From the NCBI RefSeq assembly GCF_002994045.1, contig NZ_MQUC01000003.1:596501-660500 (forward strand): a stretch of 64,000 bases of DNA, read 5' to 3'. The notes below the pieces were generated by a model. It searched no databases. It worked only from the letters and a program-made list of their open reading frames with translations, and was not told the DNA's origin. Of this stretch, positions 350-62,153 are shown in pieces (the stretch's first letter is position 1; each line of letters begins with the position of its first letter). The DNA is from Nonlabens agnitus. GTDB lineage: Bacteria; Bacteroidota; Bacteroidia; Flavobacteriales; Flavobacteriaceae. The position numbers and the translations under genes are program-made.

Positions 350-1132
350 TTAGTTGGTTTTGGTAAATCGATCATCTGCTTTAAAGCCCAGTGTATCTGT
401 TTTGGAAAAATAGTCGATCATCGCGTTTCTGATCTTGTAATCTAATTTGGTGCTGGAAATAGCTTTGGTAAAAAACTCCATGTTATCGCCACCAGTCATG
501 AGGTAATCGTTGGTAAGCACGTAGTAGTTGCGGTCAAAAGTAATAGGCTGGCCGGCAAGCGATAATTCTACACTGGCATCATCTGTTGTGATTTTGAGCG
601 CATCAAAAGGATGTGCACGTTCCTTTTCTACCAGATAGTCAACTAGTTCCTTCATTTGTTGTGGAGCCAGCTCTGCGACCACCATTTCGTTTTCAAAAGG
701 CATCACTTCATAAGCGGTTCTAGTGGTGACGTTTCCTGCGGGAATACCAGCTCGTATACCACCATGATTGAGCAGTACCATGTCAATTTCCTTACCGGTT
801 CGAGATTTGAAAATAGGTGCGCCTTGGGTGCGAGCGATCGCGGCCATCATGTTTCCTATACGCGTGTTGAGCGGCGTATCGGTTTTGGTCATATCTGCCG
901 GGTTATAACTCAAAGGGGTACTCATTTGTTGGTCCAGGCTTTGCTTGTAGGGAGCGATAAAAGTCTCTATACTGGCTACGCCTTGGATGGTAGAGTCAAT
1001 TTGGGTCTGACTTGCGTTAAGCTTTTGAACGGTGTAGTTTTCTGTCTTGCAGGATGTTGTCAATAATATCGCTTTCGCGAAAGCGAAAACCATTAAACCT
1101 TTCCTACAACCTAGGGTCATACTAATTTTCAT
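350..1132 (-). CDS. lipoprotein with 5'-nucleotidase C-terminal domain
   Basis: 260 residues. A lipoprotein signal ends in the lipobox LTTSC, so the protein is probably membrane-anchored. The body matches the 5'-nucleotidase C-terminal domain, which binds the nucleotide in UshA-type enzymes: NHGGIRAGIPAG, then YEVMPFENEMVV, then VLTNDYLMTGGDNMEFF. No metallophosphatase domain is present; that domain is encoded by the next gene, 2 bp downstream. Because this ORF has its own signal peptide, the split is a genuine two-gene arrangement and not a frameshift. The signal peptide contains AFAKA, encoded by a copy of the 16-bp palindrome at 1070. Confidence 0.88.
   Translation of the reverse strand: MKISMTLGCRKGLMVFAFAKAILLTTSCKTENYTVQKLNASQTQIDSTIQGVASIETFIAPYKQSLDQQMSTPLSYNPADMTKTDTPLNTRIGNMMAAIARTQGAPIFKSRTGKEIDMVLLNHGGIRAGIPAGNVTTRTAYEVMPFENEMVVAELAPQQMKELVDYLVEKERAHPFDALKITTDDASVELSLAGQPITFDRNYYVLTNDYLMTGGDNMEFFTKAISSTKLDYKIRNAMIDYFSKTDTLGFKADDRFTKTN
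1070..1085. repeat. 16-bp palindrome CGCTTTCGCGAAAGCG, exact
   Basis: An exact copy inside the signal peptide codons of the 5'-nucleotidase C-domain lipoprotein, read as AFAKA. Flanked by T and A. Confidence 0.97.
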
Positions 1133-1144
1133 AGGCGATTGTTA

Positions 1145-1152
1145 TACCTTTG
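1145..1152 (+). promoter_or_regulatory. -7 box (TAccTTTG) for the DUF6913-dapA operon
   Basis: TACCTTTG matches the Bacteroidetes sigma-A -7 consensus TAnnTTTG and ends 17 bp before the ATG at 1170. I see no good -33 TTG at the usual spacing. Confidence 0.5.
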
Positions 1153-1169
1153 TGGCTTAGTAAAAGTAA

Positions 1170-1676: not shown

Positions 1677-1677
1677 C

Positions 1678-2562: not shown

Positions 2563-2626
2563 AAAGTAACATGTAAATGCAAAAGCCAATCAACGGAATG
2601 GCTTACTTGCAGTTTAAACAACAACA

Positions 2627-3424: not shown

Positions 3425-3438
3425 GAACACTATTTACT

Positions 3439-3762: not shown

Positions 3763-3767
3763 ATTCT

Positions 3768-4976
3768 ATGAGTATATTGAGTGGTAAAAAGGTATTGCTA
3801 GGAGTAACTGGTGGTATCGCTGCTTACAAAACAACTTATTTGACGCGCCTGCTTGTAAAAGCAGGCGTTTCTGTTAAAGTGGTAATGACACCATCTGCCA
3901 GGGATTTTGTCACGCCACTGTCCTTAAGTACGCTTTCAAAAAATCCAGTGTTGTCCTCATTTACTAATGAAGATGATGAGAATGACTTGTGGAACAACCA
4001 TGTGGAACTAGGTCTCTGGGCAGACTTGATGATCATCGCACCATGTACGGCAAATACAATGAGCAAGATGGTCAATGGCACCGTGGACAATCTCTTGCTA
4101 GCAGTTTATACCAGTGCTAAATGTCCCGTATACTTTGCTCCGGCAATGGATCTGGATATGTACAAACATCCTTCAACCACACAAAATTTTGAGAAACTGG
4201 CTAGTTATGGCAACCACATGATTCCTGCTGGCGATGGTGAGTTGGCGAGTGGACTATCTGGCAAAGGGCGTATGGCAGAACCAGAAGAAATAGTGCACTT
4301 TGTAGAACAGCAATTACTCAAGGAACAGCCGTTGCGTTGTAAAACCTGCCTCATCACCGCTGGACCTACCCATGAAGCGATTGATCCCGTAAGATACATA
4401 GGCAATCACAGTACCGGTAAAATGGGCATGGCCATCGCTATGGATTTAGCTAACCGTGGTGCAGAAGTAACTTTAATTATAGGTCCAACCTCGCTAACCG
4501 GTGAACATGATTTGATCCAGCGCATCGATGTGACCAGCGCACAGGAAATGTATGATGCCGTGCATAAACATATTTCAGGTAAGGATTATGCGGTTTTTAG
4601 TGCTGCTGTTGCAGATTATAAACCAGCCATTCCAGCAGGTCAGAAAATAAAAAAGAGTTCTGATACGTTAACTTTAGAACTGGTCAAAAATCCCGATATT
4701 TTAGCGAGTGTAGGAGTAATGGAGAATCGTCCGTTTTTGGTAGGGTTTGCTCTGGAGACAGAGAATGAAATAGAGCACGCTTTCGCGAAAGCGAAAAAGA
4801 AAAACACCGATTTGCTCATATTAAACTCCATGAATGATGAAGGTGCTGGATTTGGGACGGATACGAATAAAATAACCATGATCGATAAGAACGGAAATTC
4901 AGAGAAATTTCCAGTGAAATCGAAACAATTGGTAGCTAAAGATATTGTCGATGAAATTGTCAAACGTACTTCATAG
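3768..4976 (+). CDS. coaBC: bifunctional phosphopantothenoylcysteine decarboxylase / phosphopantothenate-cysteine ligase
   Basis: 402 residues. The protein makes 4'-phosphopantetheine for coenzyme A. The N-terminal flavin-binding CoaC half has GVTGGIAAYK, the catalytic-histidine segment WNNHVELGLWAD, APCTANTMSKM and PAMDLDMYKHPST. The CoaB half has ITAGPTHEAIDPVRYIGNHSTGKMG and the conserved AAVADYKP with KIKKSS. It starts 5 bp after rpoZ and overlaps porD. Near the end, IEHAFAKAKKKNTDLLILN contains a palindrome-encoded AFAKA in the helix before the conserved K.KN.DL.. segment, without disturbing the family length. Confidence 0.96.
   Translation: MSILSGKKVLLGVTGGIAAYKTTYLTRLLVKAGVSVKVVMTPSARDFVTPLSLSTLSKNPVLSSFTNEDDENDLWNNHVELGLWADLMIIAPCTANTMSKMVNGTVDNLLLAVYTSAKCPVYFAPAMDLDMYKHPSTTQNFEKLASYGNHMIPAGDGELASGLSGKGRMAEPEEIVHFVEQQLLKEQPLRCKTCLITAGPTHEAIDPVRYIGNHSTGKMGMAIAMDLANRGAEVTLIIGPTSLTGEHDLIQRIDVTSAQEMYDAVHKHISGKDYAVFSAAVADYKPAIPAGQKIKKSSDTLTLELVKNPDILASVGVMENRPFLVGFALETENEIEHAFAKAKKKNTDLLILNSMNDEGAGFGTDTNKITMIDKNGNSEKFPVKSKQLVAKDIVDEIVKRTS
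4778..4793. repeat. 16-bp palindrome, exact
   Basis: An exact copy inside coaBC, read as AFAKA. Confidence 0.97.
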
Positions 4977-8522: not shown

Positions 8523-9524
8523 ATGAAAGACTTAAAATTCTCATTTATCGTTCCCGTTTTCAACCGGCCGGCAGAGCTTGAAAAACTGCTGGAGAGTTTG
8601 AGTCTTGTCCAATATAAAAATGGTTTTGAAGTCGTTGTCATAGAAGACGGATCAACGGTGGCGAGTGATGTGGTGTGTTCTCGCTTTCGCGAAAGCGTAA
8701 ACATCAACTACCTAAGCAAGCAAAATACAGGGCCAGGCGATAGTCGCAATTACGGTATGCAGCGTGCCGGCGGAAACTATTTTATCATACTGGATAGTGA
8801 CTGCATTGTTCCTAAAGATTACCTTCAAAAAGTTCACGCTCACCTAGAACGCGAGTTTGTGGAATGTTACGGTGGTCCCGACGCGGCTCATGAGAGTTTT
8901 ACAAACCTGCAAAAGGCGATCAATTACTCCATGACGTCTACCTTGACCACTGGCGGCATACGTGGTGGGAACGAGACCACGGGAAAGTTCCAGCCGCGCA
9001 GTTTCAATATGGGATTGAGCCGTAAGGCATTTGAAGCTTCGGGTGGATTTAGGACCATTCATCCTGGTGAGGATCCAGATCTAACCATGAGGTTATGGAA
9101 TTTAGGTTTTGAAACCGCACTTTTTGCAGACGCCTTTGTGTATCATGAGCGCCGAATTTCTTGGAAGCTTTTTTATAAGCAAGTCAACAAATTTGGGAAA
9201 GTACGAGTCATACTCAACAAATGGCATCCTGGCAGCAGGAAAATTACCTATTGGTTCCCTACCTTATTTTTGATCTATGTGTGCGTGGCTGTAGTGTTTG
9301 CGATTTTAGGTGTACCGCTTTTACTGTTGCCACTGGCTCTTTATGGGTCACTAATTTTAGTGGGTTCCAGCCTTGATAATGGATTTGTCGTAGGTGTCAT
9401 GAGTATCATCGCGGTCTTGATTCAGTTTGCTGGATATGGTTTAGGATTTTTAAATAGTTATATTCAAATTGGTATTCTAAAAAACGAGGAACGTGATGCC
9501 TTTCCCTACTTATTTTTTGAATAA
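8523..9524 (+). CDS. family 2 glycosyltransferase, membrane-anchored
   Basis: 333 residues. The GT-A domain begins SFIVPVFNRPAELEKLLESL, with the nucleotide-sugar motif VVVIEDGS, the metal-binding LDSDC (DxD-like) and the acceptor-site GEDPDLTMRLWNLGFETALFADAFVYHERR. Two or three hydrophobic segments at 240-320 anchor it in the inner membrane. The donor and acceptor are unknown. RFRES (about residues 55-59), in a loop after VCS, is encoded by a 16-bp palindrome. The start lies 6 bp after the fabI terminator, and the stop overlaps the next gene's ATG (TAATG). Confidence 0.88.
   Translation: MKDLKFSFIVPVFNRPAELEKLLESLSLVQYKNGFEVVVIEDGSTVASDVVCSRFRESVNINYLSKQNTGPGDSRNYGMQRAGGNYFIILDSDCIVPKDYLQKVHAHLEREFVECYGGPDAAHESFTNLQKAINYSMTSTLTTGGIRGGNETTGKFQPRSFNMGLSRKAFEASGGFRTIHPGEDPDLTMRLWNLGFETALFADAFVYHERRISWKLFYKQVNKFGKVRVILNKWHPGSRKITYWFPTLFLIYVCVAVVFAILGVPLLLLPLALYGSLILVGSSLDNGFVVGVMSIIAVLIQFAGYGLGFLNSYIQIGILKNEERDAFPYLFFE
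8682..8697. repeat. 16-bp palindrome, exact
   Basis: An exact copy inside the glycosyltransferase gene, read as RFRES. Confidence 0.97.
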
Positions 9525-13436: not shown

Positions 13437-14354
13437 TTATTTAGGTTCCATAAATAATTCTTCAACACGCCGCACAATCTCTGTGTGGCTTGTGTTGTAG
13501 GAGAACCAATTTACCTCTGGATCCTTGCGATACCATGTCATTTGCCGCTTGGCAAACCTTCTCGAATTTCTTTTGATAAGTCTGATCGCTTCATCGAGAC
13601 CATAGTCACCTTCAAAATAGGGAAAAAGCTCCTGATAGCCTACTGTTTTAAGAGGTGTCAAATTTTTGTAAGGAAGCAATTCTCTAGCTTCTTCGAGTAA
13701 TCCATTTTCAAGCATGACATCAACACGTTGGTTGATCCTGTCATACAAAGTAGGTCTTGGCGCTTCTAGCCCGACTTTAATTACTTCAAAATCTCGTTCA
13801 GTCTTTTTTCTACCCAAAAAACTGGAGTAAGTTTTACCACTTGCGCGGTAAACACTTAAAGCCCTTATTACGCGCCGCGGATTCTCCAGATCTGCCGTAA
13901 GCGCATATTCTGGGTCAATTTCCTTTAATTCTGTCACTAATTTATCAAGTCCATCTTGCTCCAGCTCATTATTGAGCGTGTCAATGACTTCATCAGGAAC
14001 ATCTGGGAATTCATCCAGTCCATGAGTTACCGCTTTCTCATATAGTGCACTGCCGCCTACCATGATCACGACATCATTGGTAGCGAATAAACCTGCTAGG
14101 GTAGATAACGCATCTCTTTCAAAATCACCAACGGAATAGGAATCATGAATGCTCAAATTCTGAATGAAGTGGTGAGGTGCCGCAGCTAGTTCTTCAGGTT
14201 CTGGAACGGCCGTGCCTATGGTCATTTCCTTGAAGAACTGTCTTGAGTCGCAGGAAATGATGTGTGTTTTGTACGCTTTCGCAAAAGCGATACTCAAAGC
14301 AGTCTTTCCCACAGCGGTAGGACCTATGATGGTAATGAGTTTCTTAGTGGACAT
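13437..14354 (-). CDS. miaA: tRNA dimethylallyltransferase
   Basis: 305 residues. MiaA prenylates A37 of tRNAs reading UNN codons. The P-loop is GPTAVGKTALSIAF; IISCDSRQFFKEMTIGTAVPEPEE is the family's substrate-site signature, followed by VGGSALYEKAVTHGLD and NPRRVIRALSVY. The segment SIAFAKAYKTHIIS carries AFAKA encoded by a one-mismatch palindrome (14274) in which TTC has become TTT, a synonymous change. It starts directly at the stop of the K+ channel gene. Confidence 0.96.
   Translation of the reverse strand: MSTKKLITIIGPTAVGKTALSIAFAKAYKTHIISCDSRQFFKEMTIGTAVPEPEELAAAPHHFIQNLSIHDSYSVGDFERDALSTLAGLFATNDVVIMVGGSALYEKAVTHGLDEFPDVPDEVIDTLNNELEQDGLDKLVTELKEIDPEYALTADLENPRRVIRALSVYRASGKTYSSFLGRKKTERDFEVIKVGLEAPRPTLYDRINQRVDVMLENGLLEEARELLPYKNLTPLKTVGYQELFPYFEGDYGLDEAIRLIKRNSRRFAKRQMTWYRKDPEVNWFSYNTSHTEIVRRVEELFMEPK
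14274..14289. repeat. 16-bp palindrome, one mismatch
   Basis: CGCTTTCGCAAAAGCG inside miaA. It still encodes AFAKA; the change is synonymous (TTC to TTT). Confidence 0.9.
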
Positions 14355-17689: not shown

Positions 17690-20512
17690 CTAGTACCAGC
17701 GACGATTGAAAAGATTCACAAAAGTATTGATGTCCAAAGTCACGATAAAACGGATTTTCTGGTCATAATCTTGCTGGGCAATTTCCCATCGATTATTGCT
17801 ATAAACAGGGAAATAAAGCTCAAAATAATCTTGTAGCAAATTCACACGTATACCGCTATCGTAAACAAACTTTGGTGCGACCGTAGTGTTCTTGACTAAG
17901 CCTACATCACCATAGGCATAAATGTATTTCCAGATGCTGTATGATGAATTGAGTGTCGTGATCCAGCGATTTGCAAAAGCAGGCTCTAGCTGGGATTTGA
18001 ATCCGCCTTCTGCAACGATGAGTTGCTGAGAGAAAAGCCCAGAATCCTCAGATCTACCGTAATAGTTGTAATCAAAAAGGTAATCTGTTGGGCGATCTAG
18101 TGCAAAAGAGAAAAAATCAGAATCTCCAGTGTCGTTATATAAAAAGGTGCCGGCGTAGAATCTAAAGTTCAACTGGCGATTGTCCTTGAAGAGCTTGCGC
18201 CATTCTGCACTACCATTAAGTTTTCCAAATTTCCCAGAAATCTCTGCGCCCACACGATAGGAGAAGAACCTCTTGAGATTAGGGTCGCTGTGGTTCCAGT
18301 TGATACTAAAAACGTTGTAGTCTGGTTCATTGACGGGATTGCTTTCGTCTCTATCACGATTTACCAAGATATTTCTAAAACTAAGTGTTTGCCTCTTGTT
18401 GCTTCTCAAGTCTTCAGGTCTGTAAGATAGATTTAGGAACGTAGAAACCCTTCTATATAACAGGTCATCTGCATAGGAATAGGTGTTTGCGCCAGCGCCA
18501 TAGCGCACTTGGTACAAACGCTCTGATCTGTCCTCAATAGGTTTGGAATAAGCAAAACCGAAGGATCCGATCAGCTTTCCAGAGTTAGTTCCATAAGTAG
18601 GGTTGATACCGTATCTAAAAGGCTTGGGCAACAAGTTACCGTTATAGAAACGCGCGCCTATGCTCACACCGTCGTACAGATTGTAACCCAGATCGGGTAT
18701 CAAAAAAACCTCAGTTTTGGTAGGGTCTTCCACATCCTTGAACAACTTCAAACTTAAGGGTCTACTTAGACTTGGTAGACTTTTGAGCGTTCTATAATTA
18801 TCCCGTTGCGAAAATTCAGGAATGAGCTGTTTGTAGTTGAGAGCTATACGATTAGCACGCTTTCGCGAAAGCGTCACCACGGTATCTCTAGCAAACGCCG
18901 GCAACCATCTTGTACTCACGATGCTATCGTTGTCCAGCGTGTAGATGGGAACAGGTAACATTCGACCCGATTTATTCTTAAGCTTCACGGTAACGGAATC
19001 GTCCTCTTTTTTTATGGATCTAATTTTCCAATCCATGCGCACGTGTGATCGTATATAGTCCTCAAAAAACCAGTTGATGTCTTGATCTGTATATGCGTCC
19101 AAAACACCTCTAAAGTCTGCTGTAGAAATGGTTTTGGAAGAACTTGCGGCGTATAGTTCCTTGATCGTCTTGTCCAATGCGTCATCTTGCAAATAATTGT
19201 CCAGATATAAAAGGCCGACACCAGCTTTGTAGGGAATACCTAATTCTTGGTTGTATTTGACCAGGCTATCTGCTGGCGTTGTGATCGCTTGATCGAGGTT
19301 GAGACGTGAGGTGTTCAAAAAGAGCAATGCGTACCTATCGTTAAAGCCTAATTTTGCAGCATTAAAACTGCGCAATCCCCAAACTTTACTGAACTTTCCA
19401 GCAATTTTAAGGTCTGGATAATGGATCTGTTGATAATCCATCATAGCAAATACCGCGATGGAACTCGCGATCCAATAATCTTCACGAGGGTTTGTTTTCA
19501 AACCTTCGTCCAGCCATTTGCGCGTCAGGGCTTTCAACATTCTTACTTCATAGGTAAATCCAGCTGGAAAGGGATTTATAAATTCTGGGAGCGAACTAAG
19601 ACCAAAAACTGGACTTTCGCGATAAAAGCGATCAGATACGACTAGGTTATCATGAGGATATGGTCCTAGCTTATCAGTGAGAAAGCCAGTGATTTTGTTG
19701 AGCAGCAATTGCTTCATTTCTGGAGCTAGATCATCCTCCTTAATATCTGTGGTAACCAGAAGATCGTTGGTCTTAAAAGTTTTGAACTGATCGTTGGTAT
19801 TTCTCAAATACAGATCTGCTTGAGAATAGCTTTTCCCCTCAAACAAGTAGCTGTTTCTAACACCAGTAGGTGCATACAGAGTCAAGGGAACATTGCTGGT
19901 GGCAAAAAGATTGGTAGGCGTGTGCAAGGAAATCGTGAAATCAATCGTTTTTCCATAAAAGTCATCCAAATCTTTATGAGAATAGTATTCCCAAGATCCA
20001 TCCACGAAATTTGCTGGATGCAAATACCAATATTTTAAGTTGTACTCACCTTTACTGGTTTTCCCGTAGTTGGTAAAGTCATCTTCGGGAATTTGTACGC
20101 TGTATTTGAGTTCGAAGGTTTTGGATTCTTTTGGCTTAAGTGGTGTGTCCAGTAATAATTCAACAATGTCTTGTTGATCATCAAGCCTGTGAATGGTATA
20201 ATCCTTTGAACCATTATCAGTTGAAATAACGGTTTTACCTCGATCCTCATCGTTGGCAAATTGGAATCGGTTTTTGAAATCTTCTGCAAACCTATTCGCT
20301 AAAGCCGTTTCTTTAGAGCTAAAAGAGTTGGCCCAATCCAGCAATACAACGCGATCCCAATCTTCATTGGAATCATTGGTGACCGTTAGCGTTTGCTCGA
20401 TTTCCAATAAGTCATTATCTGGATCAAGAAATGCAATGATTTTCGTTTGATTTTGAGCAAACGAAATCACTGGAATCAATAAAAATAGAAATCTCAAAGG
20501 TTTCAAATACAA
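17690..20512 (-). CDS. exported M1-peptidase-like protein lacking catalytic residues, fused to a C-terminal beta-barrel
   Basis: 940 residues, TTG start, signal peptide MYLKPLRFLFLLIPVISFAQ. Residues about 20-450 follow the layout of M1 aminopeptidases (N-terminal beta sandwich, then SSLPEFINPF). But where HExxHxW and the second glutamate motif should be, the sequence reads LKALTRKWLDEG ... DYWIASSIAVF. No HExxH occurs anywhere. Residues about 590-940 are alternating hydrophobic/polar strands typical of an outer-membrane beta-barrel, ending in an aromatic C-terminus (NRRWY). LSRKR near residue 550 comes from a palindrome at 18858. The function is unknown; it is possibly a surface pseudo-protease or transporter. 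Confidence 0.75.
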   Translation of the reverse strand: MYLKPLRFLFLLIPVISFAQNQTKIIAFLDPDNDLLEIEQTLTVTNDSNEDWDRVVLLDWANSFSSKETALANRFAEDFKNRFQFANDEDRGKTVISTDNGSKDYTIHRLDDQQDIVELLLDTPLKPKESKTFELKYSVQIPEDDFTNYGKTSKGEYNLKYWYLHPANFVDGSWEYYSHKDLDDFYGKTIDFTISLHTPTNLFATSNVPLTLYAPTGVRNSYLFEGKSYSQADLYLRNTNDQFKTFKTNDLLVTTDIKEDDLAPEMKQLLLNKITGFLTDKLGPYPHDNLVVSDRFYRESPVFGLSSLPEFINPFPAGFTYEVRMLKALTRKWLDEGLKTNPREDYWIASSIAVFAMMDYQQIHYPDLKIAGKFSKVWGLRSFNAAKLGFNDRYALLFLNTSRLNLDQAITTPADSLVKYNQELGIPYKAGVGLLYLDNYLQDDALDKTIKELYAASSSKTISTADFRGVLDAYTDQDINWFFEDYIRSHVRMDWKIRSIKKEDDSVTVKLKNKSGRMLPVPIYTLDNDSIVSTRWLPAFARDTVVTLSRKRANRIALNYKQLIPEFSQRDNYRTLKSLPSLSRPLSLKLFKDVEDPTKTEVFLIPDLGYNLYDGVSIGARFYNGNLLPKPFRYGINPTYGTNSGKLIGSFGFAYSKPIEDRSERLYQVRYGAGANTYSYADDLLYRRVSTFLNLSYRPEDLRSNKRQTLSFRNILVNRDRDESNPVNEPDYNVFSINWNHSDPNLKRFFSYRVGAEISGKFGKLNGSAEWRKLFKDNRQLNFRFYAGTFLYNDTGDSDFFSFALDRPTDYLFDYNYYGRSEDSGLFSQQLIVAEGGFKSQLEPAFANRWITTLNSSYSIWKYIYAYGDVGLVKNTTVAPKFVYDSGIRVNLLQDYFELYFPVYSNNRWEIAQQDYDQKIRFIVTLDINTFVNLFNRRWY
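18858..18873. repeat. 16-bp palindrome, exact
   Basis: An exact copy inside the M1-like/beta-barrel gene, read as LSRKR. Confidence 0.97.
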
Positions 20513-26171: not shown

Positions 26172-26187
26172 CGCTTTCGCGAAAGCG
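26172..26187. repeat. 16-bp palindrome, exact, intergenic
   Basis: An exact copy in the divergent gap upstream of ppa, 9 bp before its -7 box. Confidence 0.97.
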
Positions 26188-30807: not shown

Positions 30808-30823
30808 CGCTTTCGCGAAAGCG
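30808..30823. repeat. 16-bp palindrome, exact, intergenic
   Basis: An exact copy in the divergent gap between the thioredoxin gene and mazG, 13 bp upstream of a weak TCACTTTG on the minus strand. Confidence 0.97.
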
Positions 30824-39125: not shown

Positions 39126-40157
39126 TTACATCGGAATTCTTGCTTGGGTAATGATGTCCAGCGATGAAAAATCATCTTGTAGATATTTGTAGTATCCAGA
39201 AATACCTATCATGGCTGCATTGTCTGTGGTATATTCAAATGGTGGTATAAATACTTTCCATCCTTTTTCTTGTTTGGAAAGCAGGCGCTCACGCACACCA
39301 GAGTTGGCACTCACGCCACCACCTATGGCAACAGACTTGATTCCTGTTTGTTTGACCGCTTTATTCAATTTTTGAAACAGAATCTCAATGATAGTGTATT
39401 GTATGCTCGCACAAATATCTTCCAGATTGTTTTGGATAAAATCTGGATCTTTCTGTGTTTGTTTTTGGACAAAATAGAGCACACTGGTCTTAAAGCCGCT
39501 GAAGCTATAGTCCAGGTCAGGAGCTTTAGGTATAGGGAATTTAAAGGCGTCGTGATTACCCTTTCGCGCAAGCGAATCTATTATAGGTCCAGCTGGATAA
39601 CCCAGCCCAAGAATTTTTCCCGATTTATCAAATGCCTCACCTACGGCATCATCCATCGTACTGCCTATGACTTCCATATCGTGATAGTCGTTCACCTTCA
39701 CGATTTGGGTATGACCACCACTAATAGTTAATCCCAAAAATGGAAATTCTGGCATTTCCTGACCATGGTCAATAAAATGGGCCAGAATATGCGCCTGCAT
39801 GTGATGAACTTCAATCAATGGAATGTCGAGTGCTAGAGAGAGACTCTTTGCAAAACTACCACCCACAAGCAGACTTCCCATTAGTCCAGGACCTCTGGTA
39901 AAAGCTATGGCTGACAGTTGCTTTTTGTCGATATTTGCTTGTGCTAGAGCAGCATGGACGACGGGTATAATGTTAGATTGGTGTGCGCGAGAAGCCAACT
40001 CTGGTACCACACCACCATATTGTTCATGTATTTTTTGACCTGCAATAACGTTGGATAAAACCTGATTGTTTTTAAGCACAGCGCATGAGGTATCATCACA
40101 AGATGATTCTATCGCTAGAATGAAACAATTATCGTGTTTAGAGGATGGTATGGGCAT
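39126..40157 (-). CDS. tsaD: tRNA threonylcarbamoyltransferase subunit TsaD
   Basis: 343 residues from ATG 40157 (MPIPSSKHDNCFILAIESSCDDTSC). The longer ORF start at 40256 would read through the tsaD promoter and is rejected. TsaD transfers threonylcarbamoyl to A37 of ANN-decoding tRNAs. The metal-site histidines are in VHHMQAHILAHF; further signatures are FTRGPGLMGSLLVGGSFAKSLSL and IGGGVSANSGVRERL. SLARKG is encoded by a two-mismatch palindrome (39559). Confidence 0.95.
   Translation of the reverse strand: MPIPSSKHDNCFILAIESSCDDTSCAVLKNNQVLSNVIAGQKIHEQYGGVVPELASRAHQSNIIPVVHAALAQANIDKKQLSAIAFTRGPGLMGSLLVGGSFAKSLSLALDIPLIEVHHMQAHILAHFIDHGQEMPEFPFLGLTISGGHTQIVKVNDYHDMEVIGSTMDDAVGEAFDKSGKILGLGYPAGPIIDSLARKGNHDAFKFPIPKAPDLDYSFSGFKTSVLYFVQKQTQKDPDFIQNNLEDICASIQYTIIEILFQKLNKAVKQTGIKSVAIGGGVSANSGVRERLLSKQEKGWKVFIPPFEYTTDNAAMIGISGYYKYLQDDFSSLDIITQARIPM
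39559..39574. repeat. 16-bp palindrome, two mismatches
   Basis: CCCTTTCGCGCAAGCG inside tsaD, read as SLARKG. May be a decayed copy or chance. Confidence 0.6.
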
Positions 40158-44949: not shown

Positions 44950-45352
44950 CGGGTTGGTAGGCTTTATAGTAATATACGGTTCCATCTTCATGAACCAGTT
45001 CCATTTCGTCTTTGTTAGCTTTTCTTAGTATTTGTGAATAAGCTTGCTCACCGCTGGCAAAGTTGAGGACTACTTGATTTTCATCGTCCACCCATTCAAA
45101 CTTTACGGCATCGCCATAAGAAATAAAGGTGCCGTCATATGTAGGGCTTACACGACTCTTGGTGCCGCTATTGCCATTCACTTCAAAAAAATCCATGTGA
45201 TTGGTAAACGGGAATTCCTTCTGGCTGCCATCTGGCTTTTCCACTAGATCAATATTCCAGTAGCCGTTAAGGTTTTTGATTTTTTCACTGTTGCTATCAT
45301 TAGCGCAACTTACCAGCAAAACTGTAAAAACTGCAATGATTAGATTCTTCAT
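44936..45352 (-). CDS. small lipoprotein, possibly lipocalin-like
   Basis: 138 residues. Signal [16 protein letters not shown] with lipobox LVSC. The body ([41 protein letters not shown] ... [47 protein letters not shown]) has the strand pattern and G-x-W start of lipocalin-like domains. Function unknown. It overlaps recF by 4 bp and DUF721 by 14 bp, so all three are one operon. Confidence 0.75.
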
Positions 45353-46431
45353 AACTCAAACATTTTATAGGACTGATTCACATTCTTGATAACAGCTTCC
45401 GTACGCTCACTGTTCGTGTCACTTATGAATAGTTGGCCAAATTGTTCATCATTGACCATTTCGATCAATTGCGATACGCGACTCTCATCCAGCTTATCAA
45501 AAATATCATCCAGTAATAATATGGGAACGGTCCCGCTTTCACTTTTTATGAACTCAAATTGAGCCAATTTCAAAGCGGTCAAAAAGCTCTTTTGTTGTCC
45601 TTGACTACCATATTTTTTTACGGGATAACCATCTAAAGAAAACAACAGATCGTCCTTGTGAATGCCTACAGTGCTGTATTGAATCTGCAAATCCTTTTGC
45701 TGGGCATCTTTGAAAACCGTAGCAGGGTCGGCATCAAGAAAATCAGACTTGTAATAAATGTCCACCTTTTCATCTGCCTTTCTGGAAATCTTTGCATAAA
45801 AATCCTTGAAAATAGGAGTGAAGCGTTCTAAAAATTCCACCCTACACTTATGAATATACGCGCCCAGCGCTACCATTTGTTCATCATAAACGGCAAGCGC
45901 ATCGCTATCAAACTTACGGTTTGCCGCAAAGTACTTGAGCAAGGCATTGCGCTGTGATAACAACTTGTTGTAGTTGATAAGTCGCTCCAGATATTTTTGA
46001 TTGTCCAGTGAGAGAACGCCATCTAGAAATTTACGTCTGGTCTCACTGCCTTCTATGATAAGGTCGCGATCTGCTGGTGATATGATGACCAGTGGCAGCA
46101 AGCCTATATGGTCACTAATCTTTTCATAGACCTTACCATTACGCTTTGCAATTCGCTTATTACCACGTTTGGCGCTTATCACGACATTCTCTTCTCGATC
46201 ATCCTTTTCAAATTTCCCATTAATAACAAAAAAATCAGTTTCATGTTTGATGTTTTGAATCGTAATGGGATTGAAATAACTTTTGGCAAAGGCAAGATGG
46301 TAGATTGCGTCCAGCACGTTGGTTTTTCCTACGCCATTATTGCCCACAAAGCAGTTGATTTTTTCATCCATCTCAAAATCAGCGCTGTCAAAACTTTTGT
46401 AGTTGACCAGACTTAAGGATTTGAGATGCAT
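45349..46431 (-). CDS. recF: DNA replication/repair protein RecF
   Basis: 360 residues from ATG 46431 ([19 protein letters not shown]), the usual RecF length; 26 extra in-frame codons upstream include the palindrome and are not conserved family sequence. Walker A is [18 protein letters not shown], the signature region is [19 protein letters not shown], and Walker B is [15 protein letters not shown]. RecF helps load RecA at gaps. It is first in the recF-lipoprotein-DUF721 operon. Confidence 0.95.
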
Positions 46432-46478
46432 ATGATTTGTGTTGTAATTATTTGAAAAACAAAAGGTTGTGATGAGTT

Positions 46479-46494
46479 CGCTTTCGCGAAAGCG
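46479..46494. repeat. 16-bp palindrome, exact, intergenic
   Basis: An exact copy in the divergent gap between recF and the TPR gene, 11 bp upstream of ACCTTTTG on the minus strand. Confidence 0.97.
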
Positions 46495-46588
46495 AAATAA
46501 AGATTCCAACCTCGACGCGACGTCAAATTTAAGGATTGCCTTCTAGAAGAATAAGTAACAACGCGTTTTTTAATACCGATAAAAATTA

Positions 46589-51699: not shown

Positions 51700-51718
51700 A
51701 TAGGGTCGATTAAGAGGG

Positions 51719-51726
51719 CAAAGATA
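51719..51726 (-). promoter_or_regulatory. -7 box (TAtcTTTG) for pheT
   Basis: An exact TAnnTTTG, 19 bp upstream of the pheT ATG. The palindrome at 51737-51752 starts 10 bp further upstream and covers the -33 position. Confidence 0.6.
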
Positions 51727-51736
51727 GTGGTATGAA

Positions 51737-51752
51737 CGCTTTCGCGAAAGCG
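51737..51752. repeat. 16-bp palindrome, exact, intergenic
   Basis: An exact copy between the acyltransferase gene and pheT, 10 bp upstream of the pheT -7 box. Confidence 0.97.
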
Positions 51753-51812
51753 GAAATCCTACAAACCACCTGCTATGATGTTAGTGTAGTATAGGATTCA
51801 AGAAGAGTGAAA

Positions 51813-52702: not shown

Positions 52703-53350
52703 TTAGTGATCCATCGCTAGCGTGAACAAGCTTTTGAACTCGTTGAGCATCATGGCGGTAGCGCCCCAAACGATATGATCCTTCAATAAAAAACAAGGCA
52801 CATCGACATTTTCCATATAGCTGGTCGACAGGTTATGAGTAGAAACATTTGCTGGGTCCAGCAATTCTTGCAATGGTACTTCTATGATAGATTTCACCTC
52901 GCTGGGTTGCGGTGTGAAGGATAAGTTCGCTTTCGCGAAAGCGAGAAAAGGACGAACCAAGTAGTTACTGGGCGGTATGTAAACTGGAGTACCTGCTGTA
53001 ATGACTTCCTGATGGCTCATCAATATACCTACTTCTTCTTCAGTTTCTCTTAGAGCTGTGACGGCATGGGAATCGTCTTCTTCTTCTGACCGGCCACCAG
53101 GGAACGCGATCTGTCCACTGTGTTTTCCTTTCGAGATCATACGCTCGATAAGCACGAAGTAGGGAACATCATATTTAGGGTACACCAGCATCATGGTCGC
53201 TGCCTCTTTGGGAGTTTTTGAAGCCATTTGGGCATTTTGTAATTCTTCCAGTCGCTCCACGGCAGCCATTTCCATCTGTGCCGTGGCACCTGGCAATGGC
53301 ATTTTGGTTAATTTTGGAACTAGATCTAAAAAATCACTGAATGAATTCAA
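52703..53350 (-). CDS. Nudix hydrolase (CoA pyrophosphatase-like)
   Basis: 215 residues, apparent TTG start at 53350 (MNSFSDFLDLVPKLTKMPLPG). The Nudix box is complete (GGRSEEEDDSHAVTALRETEEEVGI), preceded by GKHSGQIAFPGG, the NuCoA pattern of coenzyme A diphosphatases. PFLAFAKANLSF contains a palindrome-encoded AFAKA (52928) in place of the usual loop before the ExV strand. The first 10 bp overlap head-to-head with the cyclophilin gene. Confidence 0.88.
   Translation of the reverse strand: MNSFSDFLDLVPKLTKMPLPGATAQMEMAAVERLEELQNAQMASKTPKEAATMMLVYPKYDVPYFVLIERMISKGKHSGQIAFPGGRSEEEDDSHAVTALRETEEEVGILMSHQEVITAGTPVYIPPSNYLVRPFLAFAKANLSFTPQPSEVKSIIEVPLQELLDPANVSTHNLSTSYMENVDVPCFLLKDHIVWGATAMMLNEFKSLFTLAMDH
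52928..52943. repeat. 16-bp palindrome, exact
   Basis: An exact copy inside the Nudix gene, read as AFAKA. Confidence 0.97.
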
Positions 53351-55300: not shown

Positions 55301-58138
55301 CTATAAATATTCTTCCATAGGGGCACAAGTACACATCAAATTACGATCGCCATAGGCGTCATCTGCACGACGAACTGACGGCCAGAATTTGTTGAGCGCT
55401 ACCCATTCCAATGGATATGCAGCCTGCTCTCTAGTGTACGGGAAATCCCAATCATTTGAAGTAAGCATCATCATGGTATGAGGTGCATTCTTAAGAAGGT
55501 TGTTGGGCTCATCCTTATCACATTCTGCTATCTCTTTTCTTATCGAGATCATAGCATCACAAAAACGATCGATTTCTGCTTTGCTTTCTGATTCTGTAGG
55601 CTCGATCATCATGGTTCCTGCAACTGGGAAAGAAACTGTAGGAGCGTGGAATCCATAATCCATTAATCGTTTTGCGATATCCACAACTTCAATTCCGTTG
55701 TCTTTAAATGGACGACAGTCAATAATCATCTCGTGTGCGGCGCGTCCTTGTTCTCCAGAATACAAACATTCAAAACTTCCTTTAAGACGTTCTTTGATGT
55801 AGTTGGCATTCACGATGGCATATTCTGTAGATCTTTTCAATCCATCGGCACCTAGCATGCAGATGTATCCGTAAGAAATCAAACAAGCCAAAGCACTACC
55901 AAATGGTGCCGCACTAATAGGAGTAATCGCTTGATCGCCACCAGTTGGAATAATTGGATTGGTAGGCAGGAATGGAACCAATCGCTCAGCCACACAAATA
56001 GGTCCAACGCCAGGTCCACCACCACCATGTGGAATGGCAAATGTTTTATGTAGGTTCAAGTGACATACATCTGCACCAATGTTTCCAGGATTAGTCAACC
56101 CAACCTGTGCGTTCATGTTTGCACCATCCATATATACCAGTCCACCGTTATCATGGATCAACCCAGTAATTTCTTTGATGGCACTTTCATAAACACCATG
56201 CGTCGATGGATAAGTTACCATCAAGGCACTAAGACTGTCTTTGTATTGTTCTGCTTTTTCGCGCAAATCATCCACATCGATATTACCGTTTTCCAAAGCT
56301 TTGGTGACGACAACCTTCATACCAGCCATAACGGCACTCGCAGGATTGGTTCCATGTGCGCTGGATGGTATCAAACAAATATTTCTGTGCGTATCACCAC
56401 GTGAAATGTGGTAGGCACGTATAGCCATAAGTCCTGCAAACTCACCTTGTGCACCAGAATTGGGTTGTAGTGAAGTACCTGCAAAACCGGTGGCTTCATT
56501 CAATTGTAGCTCAAGTTTTTTAAGCATTTCCTGATATCCAGCTGCTTGATCGATAGGTACAAACGGGTGAATATTTCCCCATTGTGGATCTGACAATGGC
56601 AACATTTCTGCTGCAGCGTTAAGCTTCATGGTACAAGATCCCAATGCGATCATCGAGTGGTTCAAGGCAAGATCCTTACGTTCCAATCTCTTTATGTATC
56701 GCATCAATTCCGTTTCACTGTGATAGGAATTGAACACCTCGTAGGTAAGGAAGTCGGTTTGGCGACCAGTTCCTAGGTTGGTTTCGTCCAACAATTCTGT
56801 GATCGGTTCTGCTGTTTTGTTTACCGCTTTCGCGAAAGCAGAAACTATATCATTCAGATCTGCAAGTGATGTGGTCTCATTGATGGAAACCTGCACGGTG
56901 TCTGCATCTGGATAATAGAAGTTGATTTCTTTTTCTAACGCAGCTTCTCGTACTGGAGCCGATGAAGTCTTGAAAGAAAGCGTGTCAAAATAATTCTCGT
57001 TAGTCTGGTAGATGCCTAGTTTTTCAACTGCATCTGCTAGAGTTGCGGCATGTCTGTGGACTTTTCCAGCGATGTATTTCAATCCTCTTGGGCCATGATA
57101 TACAGCGTACATTCCAGCCATTACGGCTAGTAGTACTTGAGCGGTACAAATATTTGAGGTCGCCTTATCGCGTTTGATGTGCTGTTCTCTGGTTTGCAAT
57201 GCCATGCGCAACGCACGTTTGCCATCCATATCCTTTGTCACACCAATGATACGTCCTGGAATCTGTCTCTTGAATTCTTCTCTGGTAGCAAAAAACGCCG
57301 CGTGTGGACCGCCGTATCCCAAAGGAATACCAAAACGTTGTGTGGTTCCCACAACTACATCTGCGCCCCAATTTCCCGGAGCTTCCAGCAGTACCAACGA
57401 TAGAATATCTGCGGCTACAGCTATGCGAATGCCTTTATCAGAGCACTCTTTCGCGAAAGCGGTATAATCCACAACATTACCACTAGCACCTGGATACTGA
57501 AGTAGTATTGCGTAATAAGAATCGTTAAGATCCATTTCCTTAGGATTGCCTTCCACCAACTCGATCCCAAGCGGAATAGCACGAGTTTTTAGCAATTCCT
57601 TAGTTTGTGGCATCACATCGTTATCCACAAAGAACTTGACGTGATTGTTTTTCTTTTGATCGCGATCACGAACTGAGAATAACAGAGTCATTGCCTCGGC
57701 AGCCGCTGTAGATTCATCCAGTAGTGAGGCATTTGCAAGCTCCATCCCAGTAAGATCGGTCACCATGGTCTGGTAATTCAATAGCGCTTCCAGACGACCT
57801 TGAGCAATTTCTGCTTGATAAGGCGTGTAAGCCGTATACCAGCCTGGATTTTCTAGAATATTTCTTTGAATTACCGCTGGAGTTATACCTGCATTGTAAC
57901 CTAGACCTATGTAGGATCTATATTGTTTGTTTTTATTCCCCAAAGTGTTGATATGGGACAAAAATTCATACTCACTCATCGCGTCATCCAGCTGCAATTC
58001 CTTCTGGAGCCTGATGCCTGCTGGTATGGTTTCATGGATTAACTGATCAATGTCTTCTACACCTATTTTTTCCAGCATTTCTGGAAGGTCTGAGCGGCGT
58101 GGTCCAATGTGTCTGAGTGCAAAGCGGTCTGTATTCAT
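55301..58138 (-). CDS. gcvP: glycine dehydrogenase (decarboxylating), P protein
   Basis: 945 residues from ATG 58138 (MNTDRFALRHIGPRRSDLPEML); the ORF start at 58171 falls in the -7 box. GcvP is the PLP enzyme that decarboxylates glycine and passes aminomethyl to GcvH. The PLP lysine is in HLNLHKTFAIPHGGGGPGVGP; LDESTAAAEAM and SSAHGTNPASA are family signatures, and it is a fused full-length P protein. Two palindromes are inside: SAFAKAVNKT (56825) and YTAFAKECSDKG (57446), both near-perfect. No other gcv gene is nearby. Confidence 0.97.
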   Translation of the reverse strand: MNTDRFALRHIGPRRSDLPEMLEKIGVEDIDQLIHETIPAGIRLQKELQLDDAMSEYEFLSHINTLGNKNKQYRSYIGLGYNAGITPAVIQRNILENPGWYTAYTPYQAEIAQGRLEALLNYQTMVTDLTGMELANASLLDESTAAAEAMTLLFSVRDRDQKKNNHVKFFVDNDVMPQTKELLKTRAIPLGIELVEGNPKEMDLNDSYYAILLQYPGASGNVVDYTAFAKECSDKGIRIAVAADILSLVLLEAPGNWGADVVVGTTQRFGIPLGYGGPHAAFFATREEFKRQIPGRIIGVTKDMDGKRALRMALQTREQHIKRDKATSNICTAQVLLAVMAGMYAVYHGPRGLKYIAGKVHRHAATLADAVEKLGIYQTNENYFDTLSFKTSSAPVREAALEKEINFYYPDADTVQVSINETTSLADLNDIVSAFAKAVNKTAEPITELLDETNLGTGRQTDFLTYEVFNSYHSETELMRYIKRLERKDLALNHSMIALGSCTMKLNAAAEMLPLSDPQWGNIHPFVPIDQAAGYQEMLKKLELQLNEATGFAGTSLQPNSGAQGEFAGLMAIRAYHISRGDTHRNICLIPSSAHGTNPASAVMAGMKVVVTKALENGNIDVDDLREKAEQYKDSLSALMVTYPSTHGVYESAIKEITGLIHDNGGLVYMDGANMNAQVGLTNPGNIGADVCHLNLHKTFAIPHGGGGPGVGPICVAERLVPFLPTNPIIPTGGDQAITPISAAPFGSALACLISYGYICMLGADGLKRSTEYAIVNANYIKERLKGSFECLYSGEQGRAAHEMIIDCRPFKDNGIEVVDIAKRLMDYGFHAPTVSFPVAGTMMIEPTESESKAEIDRFCDAMISIRKEIAECDKDEPNNLLKNAPHTMMMLTSNDWDFPYTREQAAYPLEWVALNKFWPSVRRADDAYGDRNLMCTCAPMEEYL
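56825..56840. repeat. 16-bp palindrome, one edge mismatch
   Basis: The last base is A. It lies inside gcvP, read as AFAKA. Confidence 0.93.
57446..57461. repeat. 16-bp palindrome, one mismatch
   Basis: CTCTTTCGCGAAAGCG inside gcvP, 606 bp from the previous copy, read as AFAKE. Confidence 0.9.
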
Positions 58139-58168
58139 AGTACTTATGTGGTCTATTTTAAGAGAATA

Positions 58169-58176
58169 CAAAAGTA
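58169..58176 (-). promoter_or_regulatory. -7 box (TActTTTG) for gcvP
   Basis: An exact TAnnTTTG, 30 bp upstream of ATG 58138. Confidence 0.5.
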
Positions 58177-58272: not shown

Positions 58273-58277
58273 ATTAA

Positions 58278-59350: not shown

Positions 59351-59917
59351 TTAGTTATCATCATTAAACCACTTGTCCTTGAGACAATCCATTAATTGTA
59401 CTCTTGCGCGGTGCAATATTACCCATAAATTTGACGGCGTGATATCATGTTCCTTACAGATCGTTTCTGTTTCAAGATTATCGATAGATTTCTGGACAAA
59501 TATGGTGGCATAACGTTCTGGTAGTGAATCGATGCACGCATTCAGCGCCTCGCCCAGTTCGCGTTGTTCAATTTCATCTTCTACAGTAGGATTGCGCATA
59601 TCACCTACACGTTCTTCCAGCCAGTCGCCTTCTTGATCGCTAGTGGCGAGATAGCTCACTCGTACTTCAGCTTTTCCTTTTTTACTGTTTTGCTTTCTAT
59701 ATTGATCAATAATCTTGCGTTTAAGAATGGAAACCAACCAGGTACGTTCTGTACTGTTACCTTGGAATCGGTGTGCGCTTTTTAAACCAGCCAGAAAAGT
59801 TTCAGACACCAGATCTTCGGCAAGAGCAGCATCGTTTACTCTGGTAATGGTATAATTGAATAAGTAGTCCGCGTAGCGATCTACCCATTTATCTGGAACT
59901 AATTTTACTTCTGGCAT
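59351..59917 (-). CDS. ECF-type RNA polymerase sigma factor
   Basis: 188 residues. Region 2 is visible in DKWVDRYADYLFNYTITRVNDAALAEDLVSETFLAGLKSAHRFQGNSTERTWLVSILKRKIIDQYRK and region 4 in ALNACIDSLPERYATIFVQKSIDNLETETICKEHDITPSNLWVILHRARVQLMDCL. It is an extracytoplasmic-function sigma without a membrane segment, paired with the small zinc protein that follows. Its regulon is not evident from this window. Confidence 0.93.
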   Translation of the reverse strand: MPEVKLVPDKWVDRYADYLFNYTITRVNDAALAEDLVSETFLAGLKSAHRFQGNSTERTWLVSILKRKIIDQYRKQNSKKGKAEVRVSYLATSDQEGDWLEERVGDMRNPTVEDEIEQRELGEALNACIDSLPERYATIFVQKSIDNLETETICKEHDITPSNLWVILHRARVQLMDCLKDKWFNDDN

Positions 59918-60095
59918 CTTTATCTATTCAGAATTCAAAATAATGAATTCAGATTTATTTCAATTCGTCAAACCTACCTTTTGGAGGGAAACGCTTGGTA
60001 TATTCCCAAAGTTAAGCCTCAAAAGCTCTCTAGGCACTATATGAACTCTTAACAAAATCAAAAACCAGCCGTTAACACGAACTTATTTTTAACCG

Positions 60096-62153
60096 TTACG
60101 CTACCAATCCTGCTCTTTTAAGCAAAGCGTCTATTTTAGGTTCGCTTCCGCGAAAGCGGGTATACAACAACATTGGGTTCTCTGTTCCACCTTTTGATAA
60201 AACGTTGTCCTTAAAGCTAGAGGCAATTTCTCTGTTGAAAACACCTTTCTCCTTGAACAGTTCAAAAGCATCTGCATCAAGTACTTCTGCCCATTTATAG
60301 GAGTAATATCCAGCGCTGTAACCACCTTGAAAAATATGGGCAAAAGCGGTACTCATACAGCTACTTTCCACATCTGGATATAAATCTGTTTGGTCAAAAG
60401 TTTCCATTTCATGAAGTTTTACGTCATCAATCTCACGTGGATCGATACCATGCCAACTCATGTCCAGCATTCCAAAGGATAGCTGTCGCAGCGTTTGCAA
60501 CCCTTGATGGAAACTAGCCGCGTTCTTAATCTTTTCAATGTACTCTGCTGGAATTACTTCGTCCGTTTCATAATGACGGGCAAAAAGTTCCAGCGCTTCT
60601 TTCTCATAACACCAGTTCTCAAGAATCTGACTGGGCAGTTCCACAAAATCCCAAAATACTGATGTGCCTGATAGGCTACGGTAAGTAGTATTTGCAAGCA
60701 TGCCGTGTAGCGCATGTCCAAATTCATGAAAAAGTGTGGTCACCTCATTAAAGGTTAGTAACGATGGTTTAGTAGCAGTAGGCTTAGTGAAATTACAAAC
60801 GATGGAAATGTGTGGACGGCTGTTCACACCATTTTCAATGTATTGATCTTTGAATGAGGTCATCCATGCGCCATTTCTTTTTCCCTTACGCGGGAAAAAA
60901 TCGGCATAGAAGATAGAATTCAATGAGCCGTCTTCATTTTTGACCTCATAGGTCATCACATCTTTGTGATAGGTGTCTATGTTATCAGTTTTGTGAAATG
61001 TCAATCCATACAGACGATTTGCCACTTCAAAGGCGCCGTCGATGACATTTTCCAATTTAAAATACGGTTTGAGAAGCTCATCATCAAGATTGAAGTGCGA
61101 TTTCTTCAGTTTTTCAGAGAAATAGGCAGCATCCCATTTTTGCAACTCTTTAATGGGTTCCAAATGGTTATCACGCAGGTATTCAACCGCAAAATCAGTA
61201 AGTTCATCAAATTCCTTTCTTGCTGCGGGCTTGGCTTTTTTGAGTAATTCCTCTGAGAATTTGCGCACCTTTTTGGGCGTCATCGCCATGCGTTCTTCCA
61301 ATACAAAGTGCGCATGCGTTTTATAGCCTAGCAAATTGGCTCTTTCAAATCGCAAGTTGGCGATTTCCAACACGTTCTCCTGATTGCTATGCTTACCTTG
61401 ATAAGCCCTAGCTCCAAAAGCTTTGGACATCGTTTCGCGCAGTTCACGGTTATCTGCATAAGTCATGAAAGGAATATAACTGGGATAATCCAGTGTGAAT
61501 ACATAACCTTCCTTGTCACGGCTTTTTGCTTCTTCTGCAGCGGCTTCTAGTGCTGTTTCTGGTATACCTGCAAGGTCGTCCTTATTGGTGAGGTGTAGTT
61601 CAAATTCCTGCGTTGCTGCGAGTACATTCTCTCCAAAACCTAGAGAAAGTTGCGCCAGTTTTGCATCGATTTCACGCAGCCGCTCTTTTTTGTTTTCCGC
61701 AAGATTGGCGCCGTTACGAGCAAATCGTTTGTATTGTTTTTCCAGCAAAGTCAATTGTTCTGGGTCCAGCGCTAGTTCATCGCGTTGATCATAAACGGCT
61801 TTTACCCTGGCAAACAATTCTTTATTTAAAGTCACGTCGTTACCAAATTTTGAAAGCTGCGGGCTCACCTCACGGGCAATTCGCTGTATTTCGTCATTGG
61901 TCTCTGCGCTGTTGAGGTTAAAAAATATAGAACTGATGCGGCTTAGTTGATCGCCGCTTCGGTCCAGTGCCTCAATGGTATTTGCAAAGGTGGCCGGTTG
62001 ACTGTTACTGGTGATGGTGTCAATTTCTGACTGTGCTAATGAGATCGCTTTCGCGAAAGCGGACTCAAAATGAGCCTCTTCAATCACGGCAAACGGTGCC
62101 GTTTGAAAAGGCGTTTCAAACGTCTGTAATAGGGGATTGTTTTCTTTACTCAT
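60096..62153 (-). CDS. M3-family oligopeptidase / dipeptidyl carboxypeptidase
   Basis: 685 residues, no signal peptide, so cytoplasmic. The thimet-like zinc site is LFHEFGHALHGML (HExxH around residue 474), with the third ligand expected in ILENWCYE. The family start PLLQTFETPFQTAPFAVIEEAHFESAFAKAI and the C-terminal GGYSAGYYSYKWAEVLDADAFE are typical of Dcp-like enzymes, which trim peptides. Two palindromes: SAFAKAIS (62046) and the degenerate RFRGSE (60143). Confidence 0.95.
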   Translation of the reverse strand: MSKENNPLLQTFETPFQTAPFAVIEEAHFESAFAKAISLAQSEIDTITSNSQPATFANTIEALDRSGDQLSRISSIFFNLNSAETNDEIQRIAREVSPQLSKFGNDVTLNKELFARVKAVYDQRDELALDPEQLTLLEKQYKRFARNGANLAENKKERLREIDAKLAQLSLGFGENVLAATQEFELHLTNKDDLAGIPETALEAAAEEAKSRDKEGYVFTLDYPSYIPFMTYADNRELRETMSKAFGARAYQGKHSNQENVLEIANLRFERANLLGYKTHAHFVLEERMAMTPKKVRKFSEELLKKAKPAARKEFDELTDFAVEYLRDNHLEPIKELQKWDAAYFSEKLKKSHFNLDDELLKPYFKLENVIDGAFEVANRLYGLTFHKTDNIDTYHKDVMTYEVKNEDGSLNSIFYADFFPRKGKRNGAWMTSFKDQYIENGVNSRPHISIVCNFTKPTATKPSLLTFNEVTTLFHEFGHALHGMLANTTYRSLSGTSVFWDFVELPSQILENWCYEKEALELFARHYETDEVIPAEYIEKIKNAASFHQGLQTLRQLSFGMLDMSWHGIDPREIDDVKLHEMETFDQTDLYPDVESSCMSTAFAHIFQGGYSAGYYSYKWAEVLDADAFELFKEKGVFNREIASSFKDNVLSKGGTENPMLLYTRFRGSEPKIDALLKRAGLVA
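60143..60158. repeat. 16-bp palindrome, one mismatch
   Basis: CGCTTCCGCGAAAGCG inside the M3 peptidase gene, read as RFRGSE. Confidence 0.88.
62046..62061. repeat. 16-bp palindrome, exact
   Basis: An exact copy inside the M3 peptidase gene, read as AFAKA. Confidence 0.97.

Follow-up and report, generated by a model that had tools for sequence, protein, structure and literature searches.

A 16-bp palindrome with long biased arms in Nonlabens genomes: a possible mark of the cell's own DNA

The 16-bp palindrome CGCTTTCGCGAAAGCG (termed here the word; it is a dyad and hence has no orientation) is repeated throughout the genome of Nonlabens agnitus (G000, 3.22 Mb in 4 contigs). It was noticed in a stretch of 64,000 nucleotides of this genome, G000:C4:596501-660500 (termed the window). 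Hundreds of evenly spaced copies, often intact at the same places across species, suggest that some protein reads the word, perhaps to recognise the cell's own DNA. In the reading favored here (probability about 0.4), the word works like an uptake sequence, i.e. as a mark of self-DNA that is read as a dyad; it is not claimed to be an uptake sequence.

Uptake sequences and highly iterated palindromes (HIPs) are exceptional in that a single short word has reshaped an entire genome, and the forces behind them are a matter of debate. A literature search found no such word for Bacteroidota or flavobacteria (most subscription journals were outside the search), and the ten papers that contain TTTCGCGAAA are unrelated by title.

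Abundance and exactness of the word

The copies that the initial annotation had located in the window were all recovered at the same coordinates (11 exact, five with one mismatch and two with two), and one further copy with three mismatches lies at 38225. Dinucleotide shuffles of the window give a mean of 0.20 matches at up to three mismatches (100 shuffles), against 19 observed. The GC content of the window is 40.9%, slightly below the ~42% given before.

The G000 genome has 676 exact copies, about 1 per 4.8 kb, and the reversed control sequence has 0. A sample of 864 kb from this genome displays 180 exact copies, 40 with one mismatch, 13 with two and 13 with three, and the outermost position of the core accounts for 25 of the 40 single mismatches. 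Exact copies also outnumber one-mismatch copies in 480 kb of G250, a genome outside Nonlabens described below (86 vs 27), and in 18 congener regions (52 vs 23). This excess is a property of the uptake signal sequences (USS) of Pasteurellaceae and the DNA uptake sequences (DUS) of Neisseriaceae.

Within the sample, 117 of the 180 exact copies are inside greedily called open reading frames (ORFs), where synonymous within-gene shuffling leaves a mean of 0.5 and a maximum of 1 (20 shuffles). The word in its three frames encodes the peptides AFAKA, RFRES and LSRKR, which are found 79, 29 and 24 times; from amino acid composition, 0.27, 0.09 and 0.17 are expected. The initial annotation had made its claim depend on a genome-wide count above that of a codon- and dinucleotide-matched model. 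The genome-wide count and the synonymous shuffles bear the claim out, and the word is abundant in all the Nonlabens genomes searched.

Long arms of the site

Base composition on both sides of the core was determined for 358 arms from G000, with positions counted outward. G drops to 6-9% at positions 1-15 and returns to ~19% by positions 31-35. A is raised across positions 1-15, and C, scarce at positions 1-2, is raised from position 3 on; the column preferences are roughly AAMTCANCANAAACC. Read on one strand, the sampled left arms are poor in C and the right arms poor in G; from either side, the strand that runs into the core 5′ to 3′ is rich in G and T and has little C. The G-poor bias is present at sites in ORFs, is stronger at intergenic sites, and is also seen at one- and two-mismatch sites.

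It had been noted that 20 of 22 bases beside the exact copies in the window are A or T, which is correct, and an 18-bp full site was considered possible from this. Over the larger sample the adjoining base, read outward, is A in 62%, T in 21%, G in 15% and C in 2%, and is not simply A/T. An 18-bp site is excluded, since the biased arms reach further out, ~18 bp strongly and ~30 bp weakly on each side.

For 232 sites at up to two mismatches the core holds 31 bits of information and the two 30-bp arms ~8.5, a total of ~40 bits, whereas 11.9 bits would suffice to locate 232 sites. Within a site the two arms show no more complementarity than their composition gives (z -1.46 to 0.76), so that the site resembles two half-sites arranged as a dyad and not an extended hairpin. 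Arms of different sites have a common composition, not a common sequence. One example of a full site is at window positions 51707-51782, with the core at 51737-51752 and arms of 30 bp, the arm bias being known from the sample and not from this copy alone.

Conservation in place and origin of copies

The core just mentioned (51737-51752) is 37 bp upstream of pheT. An exact word is found there in 18 of 19 Nonlabens genomes, G000 included, though PheT identity drops to 69%. It is lost in G018 and missing in the sister genera G023 and G024. Between pheT and this word, at 51719-51726 on the minus strand, is a TATCTTTG box, which resembles the -7 element of Bacteroidota. In the draft of G001, pheT is split into two matched pieces (G001:C24:229638-232057), by a frameshift or an assembly error.

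Other sites in the window survive in some of the Nonlabens regions only, partly because gene order differs. Of 18 other Nonlabens regions, 10 have a counterpart, exact in 7 of them, in the same position as the exact word at 46479-46494, which is at the 5′ end of ORF 45349-46509. At 52928-52943 (aa position 139 of ORF 52703-53350) the same codon carries an exact word in 8 of the 18. Two copies with one mismatch are in ORF 55301-58171. That at 56825-56840 (aa position 447) is exact in G007, G019, G018 and G022 and has one mismatch in G003, G011 and G001, and that at 57446-57461 (aa position 240) is exact in G019, G018 and G008 and mismatched in G007 and G022.

Conservation was measured in 236 ordered orthologous pairs, which come from the pheT regions only and are not independent of each other. 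At flank identities of <60, 60-70, 70-80, 80-90 and >90%, an exact partner word is present in 33, 40, 62, 84 and 94% of pairs. If the word had changed like its flanks, 0.0, 0.1, 1, 7 and 36% would be expected. The 70-80% bin, where 62% stands against 1%, holds 108 pairs.

When coding sites that are not shared with the distant G250 are aligned with it, 15 of 20 alignments are ungapped and 5 are gapped. This suggests that words arise mostly by substitution in place. Origin by point mutation and not by copying is also a property of USS/DUS, and a word in a phage terminase gene (below) is ungapped too.

These data bear on a mobile palindromic element of the repetitive extragenic palindrome (REP), miniature inverted-repeat transposable element (MITE) or Rickettsia palindromic element (RPE) type. 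Such an element would give many near-identical copies, as seen, and the five gapped cases remain as candidates for insertion. The general pattern is not that of inserted copies with empty orthologous sites: words are conserved in place across the genus, 15 of the 20 sites show no gap, and the arms are alike in composition and not in sequence. A mobile element is therefore extremely improbable as the source of the word.

Placement and spacing

Densities by placement were calculated with the 14-mer core and with intergenic stretches of 40-1500 bp (136 sites in ORFs and 35 tandem, 14 divergent and 17 convergent intergenic sites). They are 0.175 per kb in ORFs, 0.88 in tandem, 0.91 in divergent and 1.53 in convergent intergenic stretches. 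The convergent excess argues against promoters. A transcription-regulator site, or a terminator or promoter element, could be suspected from the -7-like box beside the word at pheT. The convergent class, densest on 17 sites, and the many exact copies within ORFs make such a function very improbable.

Words avoid each other. Gaps of less than 1 kb number 5 of 159 in G000 (32 expected) and 2 of 110 in G250 (22.7 expected). In G000 there is 1 pair within 750 bp (35 expected) and there are 5 pairs at 1000-1500 bp (22.7 expected), with only a mild depletion at 750-1000 bp (8 vs 11.4). Within 1.5 kb G250 has 7 pairs (38 expected), so that mutual exclusion reaches ~1.5 kb in both genomes. This spacing is more regular than random, as is that of USS/DUS. 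Decaying sites are no nearer to exact ones (p 0.32).

Across 21 sampled blocks of G000 the density varies from 0.087 to 0.35 per kb, and no origin-terminus trend is visible over these blocks. A 34-kb gap without listed exact words is present at 298-332 kb of G000. The part of it at 310-330 kb (L122, G000:C4:310001-330000) contains two giant ORFs of 1813 and 1566 aa, which by eye, with no domain search, look like YD-repeat/RHS-type genes.

The lack of a visible trend, the ~1.5-kb exclusion and the conservation in place would all fit a chromosome-maintenance site, where a nucleoid, loop-anchor or repair protein binds ~700 evenly spread sites. Karlin, as cited in PMC1939737, took the even spacing of uptake sequences themselves as a sign of chromosome maintenance. 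On the other hand, PMC1626085 describes an excess of perfect over mismatched copies as an anomaly in binding sites of intracellular proteins, there is no second ParB_N copy conserved across the genus, and words in structural genes of Mu-like phages (below) are not obviously expected. A maintenance role is considered somewhat unlikely, though it is a close rival of the reading favored here.

Distribution across genomes and a second lineage

The 16-mer is present in 180-737 copies in each of 23 Nonlabens genomes. The same search shows it to be absent from 35 of 36 other relatives, the exception being G033 with 4 copies in one contig. No word at up to two mismatches was found in 1.36 Mb around pheT, comprising 77 named loci of other genera. 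The sister genera G023, G024 and G037 show no comparable 10- or 12-mer palindrome in 80-120 kb, which are small samples. Of 247 genomes of the phylum, 9 have the 16-mer, and none of these but G000 has more than two copies.

The 14-mer core occurs at least once in 61 of 299 family genomes. Besides the three Nonlabens genomes that were drawn, it is found in hundreds of copies in genomes of two further genera, G250 (857) and G234 (408), and the next highest count is 19. The pattern of Nonlabens recurs in G250, in a looser form. The 480 kb of G250 contain, in addition to the exact and one-mismatch copies given above, 25 copies with two mismatches and 30 with three, and the arms are G-poor. In 100 kb of G234 (L227-L231) there are 6 exact copies and 13 cores, with less biased arms. 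This may represent a weakened word system in decay, and the lineage has possibly lost the reader.

The PheT proteins of G250 and G234 have 62% and 61% identity to the window protein, no closer than those of other genera. In the PheT tree the two are sisters (SH-aLRT 99) and stand apart from Nonlabens, and a single clade of Nonlabens with G250/G234 is not rejected (p-AU 0.37). Over 23,483 aligned residues with 10 and 16 sites, G250 and G000 have three word places in common, one of them offset by 3 aa; by our own arithmetic ~0.05 would be expected by chance. Some of these sites may predate the split or may have been exchanged.

The word on islands and phages

In several other genera the few copies present are clustered. 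At the loci read (L232-L240, L088-L091) the words are in a family of related islands with 66-97% identity. The island copy in G131 encodes metal-transport ATPases, AcrB/CusA-type pumps, a multicopper oxidase, ArsP and the CTnDOT-type regulator RteC, and because of this gene content, RteC included, these metal-resistance islands are considered probably mobile. The same island positions recur: L232 and L237, at 78% identity, have two words in common that are exact in each. Other words are mutated in one copy or missing, e.g. site B in L234. The island arms are G-poor (10% G, 21 sites). The words at shared positions in islands of several Flavobacteriaceae genera suggest that the islands evolved in word-bearing hosts.

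IMG/VR viral stretches of less than 50% GC contain 41 sites with G-poor arms (11% G). Seven more sites in stretches of 50% GC or above have arms with 31% G and are probably due to chance. Some stretches of the first group are real phages. A Mu-like phage (L043, L047) has words inside its terminase and portal genes, and the Mu-like contig L030 and the tailed-phage contig L057 (with portal and major head genes) have them at other places. Eleven phage contigs with at least two words show 0.07-0.17 words per kb, against ~0.21 in the host. When the L043 terminase word is compared with the word-free Winogradskyella phage Peternella_1, the difference is a substitution, with no gap. A 42-nt consensus searched against named phages and plasmids gave weak matches only (E 2 to 8). 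The Nonlabens phage isolates P12024S and P12024L have 0 words in ~35.7 kb each, where ~7.5 would be expected at host density.

Search for a reader or cognate enzyme

No candidate for a reader emerged from the families tested (PF00145, PF01555, PF02195, PF00437, ComEC and PF12705). Two families of DNA methyltransferases are of interest in relation to HIP1, the highly iterated palindrome of cyanobacteria, which in Elhai's model is kept by methyl-directed mismatch repair. Of the 23 Nonlabens genomes, 9 lack the C5 methyltransferase family PF00145 and 11 give no match to PF01555; G006, G007 and G009 have neither, yet carry 579, 680 and 427 words. Of these two families, then, neither provides a cognate methyltransferase in every genome with the word. 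The word shares with HIP1 and the alternate HIPs that it is a highly iterated GC-rich palindrome within and between genes, a likeness that the initial annotation had pointed out and that these patchy enzymes show to be superficial. It differs in length (16 bp against 5-8) and is about five-fold rarer or more, HIPs being present at 1000-2000 per Mb according to PMC4390886.

Outside the exact 16-mer, TTCGCGAA is enriched (22 vs 7.1 expected), which would fit a HIP1-like word kept by methylation, though mismatched copies of the word may account for it. The inner TCGCGA is not enriched outside the 16-mer (102 vs 98.5 expected) and CGCG is somewhat depleted there. A methyltransferase also fails to explain 16 exact base pairs with long arms, and maintenance by methylation is regarded as improbable.

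A ParB- or Noc-type reader was considered and rejected. parS and Noc sites are exact palindromes of 14-16 bp with a GAAA half-site and in this are similar to the word, but they have far fewer copies and a different half-site spacing. PF02195 has a single match in 20 of 23 Nonlabens genomes, with extra matches only in G014, G018 and G019, i.e. no dedicated ParB-type reader beyond the chromosomal ParB, and no Noc-like paralogue, is conserved in Nonlabens. The initial annotation had likewise held the density to be too high for a sparse site of the parS or matS type.

ComEC is present in all 32 genomes checked, and PDDEXK_1 (PF12705) is above cut-off in the same 32; both are therefore uninformative on the word. 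From their length and layout we read the PDDEXK_1 proteins as AddB/AddA-like.

Chi, the site recognised by RecBCD or AddAB, is short, oriented and non-palindromic. A bidirectional Chi-like site can be envisaged, where a nuclease of the AddAB/RecBCD type would read the half-word on the 3′-ended strand, stop degrading and start recombination, the palindrome allowing entry from either side. An enzyme of this type appears to be present, the AddAB identity being taken from protein length, and it is common to genera without the word and so does not discriminate. The density of the word is near that of Chi in E. coli, the strand entering the core is biased from either side towards G and T and away from C, and the words on phages and islands would be accounted for, Chi too being present on mobile DNA; P12024S and P12024L have their own ERF and YqaJ-type recombination genes and would have a lesser need for the word. 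Known Chi sites are 5-8 nt long, against 16 bp plus long arms and ~40 bits here, and Chi sites are not known to exclude one another within 1.5 kb. A Chi-like function appears unlikely, though it too is a close rival of the favored reading.

A possible mark of self-DNA

The hallmarks of USS/DUS, as given in PMC1626085, are an excess of perfect over singly mismatched copies, regular spacing, a preference for non-coding DNA and over-representation in related species. The word resembles these sequences in its hundreds of exact copies, many of them genic, in its genus-wide presence, and in its biased flanks, which are known in Pasteurellaceae (same source). The likeness to DNA-uptake sequences proposed in the initial annotation is thus borne out by shared hallmarks, and the evidence fits these better than HIP1 (PMC4390886), Chi, parS or mobile repeats.

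In the mechanism proposed, the word would form the core of a dyad-symmetric site of ~50 to 76 bp, by which the cell's own chromosome is marked. A putative protein, probably a symmetric dimer, would read this site during DNA exchange, i.e. in the uptake, protection or recombination of incoming DNA. DNA that bears the word would be favored, and words would spread by biased replacement and stay exact, as has been modelled for uptake sequences. If one word serves ~1.5 kb, a second word nearby would gain nothing. In the same family, according to its authors' classification, Riemerella columbina prefers its own DNA in transformation (PMC7965970).

Several points weigh against this proposal. The literature search yielded no report of competence in Nonlabens. 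Only 3 of 23 Nonlabens genomes have a match above cut-off to the pilus ATPase PF00437, and G250 and G234 have none, so that type IV pilus machinery as in USS/DUS species is not generally found by this family and a pilin receptor like that of Neisseria is unlikely. Genera that lack the word have ComEC as well. Described USS/DUS are non-palindromic and occur at ~1 per kb, and the word is palindromic at ~1 per 4.8 kb. The mismatch spectrum of G250 is looser, with its numerous two- and three-mismatch copies. P12024S and P12024L are 98% identical over 32.1 kb, which makes the phage contrast essentially one of a single lineage. Exclusion and even spacing also fit a role in repair, recombination or chromosome folding.

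The word differs from known uptake sequences in being a palindrome with symmetric arms and a 16-bp core, in its low density, in that no pilus ATPase is conserved with it, and in its strong exclusion over ~1.5 kb, where USS/DUS include some close inverted pairs. We tentatively propose, at somewhat less than even odds, a new self-recognition mark: a dyad of ~50-76 bp that is accompanied by neither a conserved pilus ATPase nor a conserved methyltransferase of PF00145/PF01555, is present in at least two marine flavobacterial lineages and has been acquired by their islands and temperate phages. The word may label DNA that has once passed through these hosts. The 23 Nonlabens genomes of graded divergence, together with a second lineage, many genera free of the word, and phages and islands with and without it, make it possible to tell apart by test spread through exchange, through repair or through a role in chromosome structure.

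A strong match to a pilus/type-II-secretion ATPase is present at G000:C4:336408-337520 (L242), in a word-poor stretch.

Remaining copies in the window

Exact copies in the AFAKA frame are at 1070-1085, near the 5′ end of ORF 350-1132, at 4778-4793 (ORF 3768-4976), at 35485-35500 (ORF 34645-35808) and at 62046-62061 (ORF 60096-62153). The last of these ORFs also has a copy with one mismatch at 60143-60158. The RFRES frame is used at 8682-8697 (ORF 8523-9524) and the LSRKR frame at 18858-18873 (ORF 17690-20512). Two exact copies are intergenic, 26172-26187 and 30808-30823.

Single mismatches are found in the copies at 14274-14289 and 22759-22774, the latter within a UvrA-type gene (21297-24137), and two mismatches in those at 34755-34770 and 39559-39574. 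The copy with three mismatches (38225-38240) is the weakest of the set.

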